Source: Bifidobacterium olomucense | GTDB lineage: Bacteria > Actinomycetota > Actinomycetes > Actinomycetales > Bifidobacteriaceae | Direction of reading: 5' to 3' | Length of the DNA stretch: 64,000 nt | Assembly (NCBI RefSeq): GCF_012932375.1 | Contig: NZ_JAAIIG010000012.1 | Location: 1-64,000 of the forward strand | Part shown: positions 51,460 through 62,050 of the stretch, piece by piece | How the letters are laid out: the number at the start of each line of letters is the position of its first letter | Numbering within the stretch: position 1 is the stretch's first letter | Translations under genes and position numbers: made by a program | Notes under the pieces: generated by a model | What the model saw: only the letters and a program-made list of their open reading frames with translations | The model's database searches: none | Told to the model about the DNA's origin: nothing

Positions 51460-51580
51460 AAATTCGCGAATATGTACCACTGAGTCACGGTTATCGGTAC
51501 ATTTTCGCGAGGTAATCCCTAAATTCGCGAATATGTACCACTGAATCGGTATCAGTGGTACATTTTCGCGAGATAGGAGA
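51460..51580. repeat. Two tandem copies of a 61-bp TTCGCGAATATGTACC element
   Basis: The first 24 bases of each copy (51460-51483 and 51521-51544) are identical, starting AAATTCGCGAATATG. Each copy also has GGTACATTTTCGCGAG (51496-51511 and 51557-51572). In the second copy TCGCGAATATGTACCACTGA pairs with its near-complement (51552-51571) over about 20 bases, forming a strong hairpin. It lies in the 553-base gap before the importer operon and after the ddl terminator; nothing else is seen there. Confidence 0.8.
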
Positions 51581-55081: not shown

Positions 55082-55146
55082 TTTTCGCGCGAATCGTGCG
55101 CATAGCACGGCTGCAACGGCCATTTTGCGTACGAATCGCGCGAAAA
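55082..55146. repeat. TTTTCGCGCGAATCG inverted-repeat hairpin
   Basis: TTTTCGCGCGAATCGTGCGC (55082 on) pairs with the arm ending at 55146 at 19 of 21 positions, with a 23-base centre that itself folds. The word TTTTCGCGCGAATCG also occurs twice inside the nucS gene (61484, 61535). It lies between ridA and plsC. Confidence 0.75.
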
Positions 55147-61297: not shown

Positions 61298-62050
61298 ATG
61301 CGCATTATCGTTGCCGACTGCTCGGCCGAATATTCCGGCCGACTCAACGCCACACTTCCGCTGGCCAAACGTGTACTGCTGATCAAGGCCGACTCCAGTC
61401 TGCTGATTTTCTCCGAACTGGGCTCCTACAAGCCGCTCAACTGGATGACCGCCCCCTGCACCATCAAGGAGCTCGACCCGCCCTTTTCGCGCGAATCGGA
61501 TGGAAAAGGCGGATCTGAACCCTCCAAAACAGACTTTTCGCGCGAATCGGGTGCGGGAAGCGCGGAGAAGGTGCTGCGGGTTTCGTCAGATAAAGGAACG
61601 GACGTGCTGGAAGTTACGTTGCGGCACGTCTACTCCGACCAGACCTATGACCTCGGCGAGGATCCGGGGCTGATCAAGGACGGCGTGGAGGACCATCTGC
61701 AGCAGTATCTCGCCGAACAGATCGAGCGTATCGGCAAAGGCGCGAAATTGGTGCGACGCGAATACCCCACAGCCATCGGCCCGGTGGACATCATGGCCAT
61801 CAACGCCGATGGCGAGCATGTGGCGGTGGAGATCAAGCGACATGGCGGCATCGACGGCGTGGAGCAGCTCACGCGCTACTGCGAACTGCTCAATCGCGAT
61901 CCCCTGCTGGCACCGGTGCACGGCATCTTTGCCGCACAGACCATCACGCCCCAAGCCCAGGTGCTTGCCAAGGATCGTGGCTTCACCTGCCTGATTCTCG
62001 ATTATGACGAGATGAAGGGCACCGAGGACGACTCGCTGCGACTGTTCTGA
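61298..62050 (+). CDS. nucS: Endonuclease NucS (EndoMS), with repeat-derived linker insertion
   Basis: 250 residues from the ATG at 61298; a TACAGT box ends eight bases before it, so the mRNA is likely leaderless. N-terminal DNA-binding domain MRIIVADCSAEYSGRL… YKPLNWMTAPC, C-terminal PD-(D/E)XK-like nuclease REYPTAIGPVDIM, VEIKRHGGIDGVEQLTRY, and the end LRLF, which fits a beta-clamp binding motif. It cuts both strands at mismatches in the non-canonical actinobacterial mismatch repair. Between the domains, PPFSRESDGKGG… DFSRESGAGS is an extra piece not seen in mycobacterial NucS as I recall it; its DNA contains the word TTTTCGCGCGAATCG twice (61484-61498 and 61535-61549). Confidence 0.92.
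   Translation: MRIIVADCSAEYSGRLNATLPLAKRVLLIKADSSLLIFSELGSYKPLNWMTAPCTIKELDPPFSRESDGKGGSEPSKTDFSRESGAGSAEKVLRVSSDKGTDVLEVTLRHVYSDQTYDLGEDPGLIKDGVEDHLQQYLAEQIERIGKGAKLVRREYPTAIGPVDIMAINADGEHVAVEIKRHGGIDGVEQLTRYCELLNRDPLLAPVHGIFAAQTITPQAQVLAKDRGFTCLILDYDEMKGTEDDSLRLF
61483..61550. repeat. Direct repeat CTTTTCGCGCGAATCGG inside nucS
   Basis: Identical 17-mers at 61483-61499 and 61534-61550, 51 bases (17 codons) apart, both read as PFSRES/DFSRES in frame. The same 15-base word occurs in the inverted repeat at 55082-55146. Confidence 0.8.

Follow-up and report, generated by a model that had tools for sequence, protein, structure and literature searches.

The window, by which we mean the whole analysed stretch of 64,000 nucleotides from Bifidobacterium olomucense, carries a short palindromic word both in the gap between plsC and ridA and inside nucS, the gene of the EndoMS/NucS mismatch endonuclease. 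The features concerned are the following.

55082..55096, + strand: palindrome unit of the plsC-ridA intergenic array, exact TTTTCGCGCGAATCG
55132..55146, − strand: second palindrome unit of the plsC-ridA array, inverted, one mismatch, centre 51 bp from that of the first
61298..62050, + strand: nucS (EndoMS/NucS mismatch endonuclease, 250 aa, start MRIIV), with PF01939 and PF21003; PDB 2vld, 5gke
61478..61570, + strand: length-variable loop inside the NucS_N (PH-like) domain, about residues 61-91, differing between species, interrupting PF21003 and preceding PF01939
61484..61498, + strand: palindrome unit 1 in nucS, TTTTCGCGCGAATCG, encoding FSRES
61499..61534, + strand: 36-bp spacer between the two nucS units, encoding a variable DGKGGSEPSKTD-type segment in which SEPS is common to four species
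61535..61549, + strand: palindrome unit 2 in nucS, TTTTCGCGCGAATCG, encoding FSRES

Exact copies of the word TTTTCGCGCGAATCG lie at 55082 (+), 61484 (+) and 61535 (+), and a copy with a single mismatch lies at 55132 (−). At up to two mismatches the window holds four matches against 0.25 expected, and none of the shuffles reached four. Both nucS copies are read in frame as TTT TCG CGC GAA TCG, i.e. FSRES (residues 63-67 and 80-84), and they lie exactly 51 bp, or 17 codons, apart. A sequence-only reading of this DNA had reported these two in-frame copies as well as the participation of the word in an inverted repeat between plsC and ridA; both observations are borne out, the first base in nucS being 61484 and not 61483. 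The plsC-ridA pair (55082 on the + strand, 55132 on the − strand) has the same centre spacing of 51 bp as the nucS pair. At 51460-51575 of the window there is a second, different palindromic repeat of two tandem 61-bp hairpin-like units (CGCGAATATGTACCACTGA...TCAGTGGTACATTTTCGCG), which is present in B. scaligerum too.

A profile search of the nucS product revealed both EndoMS/NucS domains, NucS_C (PF01939, E 5.9e-34) and NucS_N (PF21003, E 2.5e-16), and the product matches PDB entries 2vld and 5gke by sequence. The repeat-bearing segment had initially been placed between the DNA-binding and nuclease domains. This placement was dismissed: the match of the PH-like NucS_N domain covers residues 2-57, corresponding to positions 5-59 of a profile of 100, NucS_C begins at residue 130, and the segment interrupts NucS_N instead. 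The stretch between the conserved blocks is about 30 residues longer in the window NucS than in the P. abyssi enzyme. In a poor predicted model obtained from four sequences (pLDDT 41, to be taken as a hint only), loop residues 60-90 form a coil between two strands. The proposition that NucS tolerates the segment found support in the 74 NucS sequences of the genus, which range from 227 to 290 aa with a loop whose length varies between species. The loops of other bifidobacterial NucS proteins are of very different lengths, mostly of acidic sequence and without the word; the word was found in the NucS of only four closely related species among the 74, namely B. olomucense, B. scaligerum, B. felsineum and B. 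colobi. The loop of B. scaligerum also contains a separate expansion of a 9-bp microsatellite (GAGAGTGCA), which encodes (SAE)n and amounts to 24 extra residues. At the very place of the nucS array (window position ~61550), identity between B. olomucense and B. scaligerum falls from 98.9% to 85.5%, as if at a recombination breakpoint.

NucS itself is probably a tolerant host that gains nothing from the insert. The insert would be a passenger in the form of a disordered loop translated from a DNA element, and it may be tolerated because 51 is a multiple of three, each period adding 17 residues without a frameshift. The opposite proposal is a repeat at the peptide level, in which FSRES-x12-FSRES was duplicated for the sake of the protein, e.g. 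as a clamp- or partner-binding motif. The in-frame repetition and the SEPS common to four species would suit this proposal; nevertheless, outside genes the same DNA word abounds at the same period, the amino acids vary (R/H, S/T/K) while the DNA core stays, and the loops of other bifidobacteria are unrelated and acidic. We regard it as the least probable of all the explanations considered here.

In the genome of B. olomucense (2.98 Mb), 36 copies of TTTTCGCGCGAATCG were counted at up to one mismatch, 18 per strand, as against none for the reversed-word control, and the degenerate form TTTTCGYRCGAAWHG gave 113 matches versus 2 in the control. The copies are mostly intergenic and the palindromes are grouped in arrays of 2-6. 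The unit consensus is approximately CGTACTTTTCGYRCGAAAAGTACG, which is palindromic with one half often reading GAATCG, and GTACG...CGTAC arms make each 51-bp unit an imperfect inverted repeat. Adjacent units are exactly 51 bp apart from centre to centre in 32 of 45 pairs, the remaining spacings being mainly 40/41, 52, 72 and 102 bp. According to crude ORF calls, multi-unit arrays sit within or edging gaps between mixed housekeeping genes, divergent-gene gaps included, with gltX, tmk, topA, a pgm-type gene, typA, ffh and plsC/ridA among the neighbours and with some arrays downstream of genes; the clear exception within a coding sequence is nucS. With its two units, the nucS segment truly belongs to this dispersed family of palindromic sites with a strict 51-bp period.

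The genus was compared in 112 Bifidobacterium genomes, with that of B. olomucense as G000. Counts of TTTTCGYRCGAAWHG were 58 in G000, 71 in G073, 29 in G032, 10 in G024 and, weakly, 7 in G021, and 0-3 elsewhere; the four richest genomes are exactly those that carry the pair in NucS. Among 84,980 species, the 51-bp core pair was found in B. scaligerum, B. felsineum and B. colobi, apart from isolated matches. Nearly all of the compared arrays of other species align at array loci of B. olomucense, and the number of units per array differs between sister species at these orthologous loci. In nucS, exactly two copies of the word are present in each of the four species, and the nucS array is thus older than their split. 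The NucS core tree places B. olomucense and B. scaligerum together with B. felsineum, B. colobi, G021 and G070 with moderate support, which, as judged from these sequences, makes a loss of the array in G021 and G070 probable. The earlier description of the repeat as mobile or expanding holds in part: there is a dispersed intergenic family, but expansion in nucS is not supported, and neither is free mobility, nearly all compared arrays being at orthologous positions; no REP-type transposase was found. Nor is the insert of constant length in all bifidobacteria, and the word is enriched elsewhere in the genome.

Arrays of related palindromes with a 51-bp period exist in other bifidobacteria as well, while the word of the B. 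olomucense clade is limited to a few related species. A centre-agnostic 51-bp pattern, TTCNNNNGAA-N5-CG-N27-CG-N5-TTCNNNNGAA, was found with at most one mismatch in 28 of the 112 genomes, as against 1 when the pattern was reversed. Several other species use the word GTCCGATTC-N4-GAATCGGAC, with 65 of 70 adjacent pairs at 51 bp, and the related word reaches 40-100 sites in other genomes. In some species, several consecutive intergenic gaps within 8-17 kb carry arrays of the GAATCGGAC word (L270, L271, L269). The complete genome G044 carries a different palindrome, GCGACGCATTCCCGGGAATGTGTCGC with its variants (25 matches versus 1 in the control), with spacings near 51 bp. Its nucS loop holds two CATTCCCGGGAATG-type palindromes 51 bp apart in the same frame as in B. 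olomucense (HSRES...HSPES), and its palindromes are also found at the plsC-ridA and pheA-typA gaps; all three are array positions of the B. olomucense clade. The CATTCCCGGGAATG of G044 and the TTTTCGYRCGAAAA of the latter clade are related and differ by one base per half. Altogether, 3 of 10 loci of G044 coincide with the ~20 loci of B. olomucense, where a rough chance expectation is well below 1. In the NucS core tree G044 groups with G015, which is without the array; this fits one or two origins in nucS.

What is conserved in these arrays was examined by comparing B. olomucense with B. felsineum and B. colobi. The cores (±8 bp) are 85.9% identical, the spacers 59.6% and the flanks 78.8%, in a comparison of few sites and species that is restricted to loci with the motif in both species. 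In nucS, the third base is identical among B. olomucense, B. felsineum and B. colobi in 10 of 10 palindrome codons and in 103 of the 206 remaining comparable codons, a test of ten codons in closely related species. The amino-acid changes within the nucS palindromes (R to H, S to T or K) affect bases at which the genome-wide motif is degenerate, and the Phe is encoded by TTT in 8 of 8 copies, while the rest of the gene prefers TTC by 13:3. Within the limits of so few codons, it appears to be the DNA word that is constrained, rather than the peptide; the nucS word behaves like a conserved DNA site, not like a decaying insert.

The arms of the 51-bp units, as imperfect inverted repeats, could also be thought of as RNA or single-strand hairpins that act in transcript processing, in termination or as structured RNA. 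Complementarity was found at the level of column shuffles both between the arms across the spacer (511 Watson-Crick cells versus 513 expected) and within the palindromes (943 versus 953). This lack of excess favours a double-stranded site and disfavours a selected hairpin. Moreover, eight array-bearing loci gave no Rfam matches other than tRNAs, and hairpin arrays are to our mind very improbable.

The main rival is a miniature repeat of the REP/BIME/REPIN kind that spreads or multiplies by itself without a host function and that entered the nucS loop a single time, ahead of the four-species split. REP elements, which occur with RAYT transposases, are short, palindromic, mostly intergenic, clustered and lineage-specific (PMC3116915), and the families described here have these properties. 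The numbers of units that change between orthologous arrays would also fit multiplication by slippage, and the other palindromic families in the plsC-ridA gap of relatives would fit insertion hot spots; both observations count against a binding-site reading and keep this rival alive. In B. felsineum, G021 and G070 the plsC-ridA gap holds palindromic families of the CCGAATTCGG type, with spacing that alternates between ~28 and 33 bp in B. felsineum. Against a self-spreading repeat, the Y1/RAYT transposase (PF01797) was found in 0 of 15 genomes while control genomes were positive, nearly all compared arrays are at orthologous positions, the cores are conserved above spacers and flanks, and the third positions are frozen in nucS. 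Furthermore, the spacing is far stricter than the variable inter-REP spacing of REPINs (PMC3116915), and hairpin covariation is absent. We therefore consider this origin unlikely, though a serious competitor. A phage origin was rejected: no NucS protein was found among viral contigs, and one viral contig has a 51-bp core pair, which is about the chance level.

Strict phase, symmetric words, conserved cores and positions, and a changed word at three unchanged positions in G044 lead us to favour arrays of phased putative sites for a sequence-specific double-stranded DNA-binding protein that would dock cooperatively, with a role in chromosome organisation or segregation likelier than a transcriptional regulon. 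On these sequence grounds, we hold this reading to be rather probable. Dimers of the protein would occupy one and the same face of the helix at 51-bp intervals; the spacing variants of 40/41 and 72 bp differ from 51 bp by 11 and 21 bp, about one and two helical turns, and units so spaced would stay on that face. The specificity of the binder would have drifted between lineages, words being replaced while some array positions were kept.

A chromosome-organising function is suggested by the many sites, the mixed neighbouring genes without a coherent gene set and, in several complete genomes, the crowding of arrays near coordinate 1, probably oriC. Most TTCNNNNGAATCGGAC sites in G001, G019, G020 and G006 lie within ~300 kb of the record ends. 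ParB is near the record end in G006 and G015, from which the record start was taken as the origin, and the same was assumed for the others. In the clade of B. olomucense the arrays are not tightly origin-bound: those of B. felsineum either share a contig with parB, at distances of 160-680 kb, or are found on different contigs.

Arrays of operators for an ordinary transcription factor and its regulon, with autoregulation or down-regulation of nucS through the copy inside it, would likewise account for palindromic sites with a symmetric consensus and near-integral-turn spacing, and some arrays do precede the heat-shock genes clpB and hsp20. The neighbours are nevertheless mixed housekeeping genes, arrays also lie downstream of genes, and the 27 exact 51-bp pairs in one genome and the 40-100 sites of the related word elsewhere are many for a local operator. 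Such operators seem improbable to us. Returning to the phased arrays for a chromosome-organising protein, we put forward more tentatively, as a possibility somewhat short of an even chance, that Bifidobacterium has an undescribed chromosome-organising system in which helically phased 51-bp palindrome arrays serve a putative binder that switches specificity by lineage, the site sets being rewritten in place and the nucS pair being maintained.

As a candidate binder, a ParB/Noc paralogue was rejected, as no second ParB_N protein is common to the four species and canonical parS persists in parB. A ParB_N match was found in 14 of the 15 genomes searched and none in G044; in B. felsineum the search for ParB_N (PF02195) returned the chromosomal ParB only, whose gene holds canonical parS. 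In many bifidobacteria, parS (TGTTTCACGTGAAACA) lies in frame in disordered stretches of parB, where it encodes VSRET (e.g. L250, the parB of G035). Pairs of parS exactly 51 bp apart were observed in G014, G035, G057 and G101.

In the open-licence literature, no relevant paper was found on bifidobacterial palindromic, REP, 51-bp or nucleoid repeats, and none that joins NucS, Bifidobacterium and mismatch repair. Should the arrays be binding sites, a major genus of the gut would possess a chromosome-binding system that has gone unrecognised and comprises dozens of sites in strict phase. The rapid concerted change of the recognised word would then provide a natural series for a protein and many sites that change specificity together, and nucS would clearly exemplify a protein loop that owes its sequence to a DNA element. 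FSRES-like repeats in bifidobacterial proteins, those of NucS and the parS-derived VSRET of ParB, can be translated DNA sites and not protein motifs.

Among known systems, the REP/REPIN-RAYT elements resemble the arrays as short, palindromic, mainly extragenic repeats in many copies. The arrays differ in the absence of a Y1 transposase and of hairpin covariation, in the strict 51-bp phase, in positions that are conserved between species and, for at least one relative, in the substitution of another word at unchanged positions. With CRISPR, the likeness consists in repeats at constant spacing with different spacers; here 2-6 degenerate palindromes are found at ~20 loci in both orientations and are orthologous between species, instead of forming one or few long arrays. 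The favoured role would be similar to that of the Noc/NBS or RacA/ram sites of Bacillus subtilis. The consensus of parS is TGTTTCACGTGAAACA and that of the Noc binding sites (NBS) is TATTTCCCGGGAAATA (PMC7383237). The TTTTCGYRCGAAAA of the B. olomucense clade contains a palindrome of the TTTC-NN/NN-GAAA type, has the TTC-NN/NN-GAA core in common with them and forms dispersed sites as well, but its half-sites extend further out, no additional ParB_N protein is common to the array-bearing species and the chromosomal ParB keeps its canonical parS. The RacA binding motifs (ram) of B. subtilis are likewise many and dispersed on the chromosome (PMC6593407). The arrays are similar to them as dispersed sites and are set apart from them by their regular 51-bp phase. 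Crowding towards the presumed origin, with the record start taken as such, is strong for the GAATCGGAC variant in G001, G006, G019 and G020 and not tight in the clade of B. olomucense.
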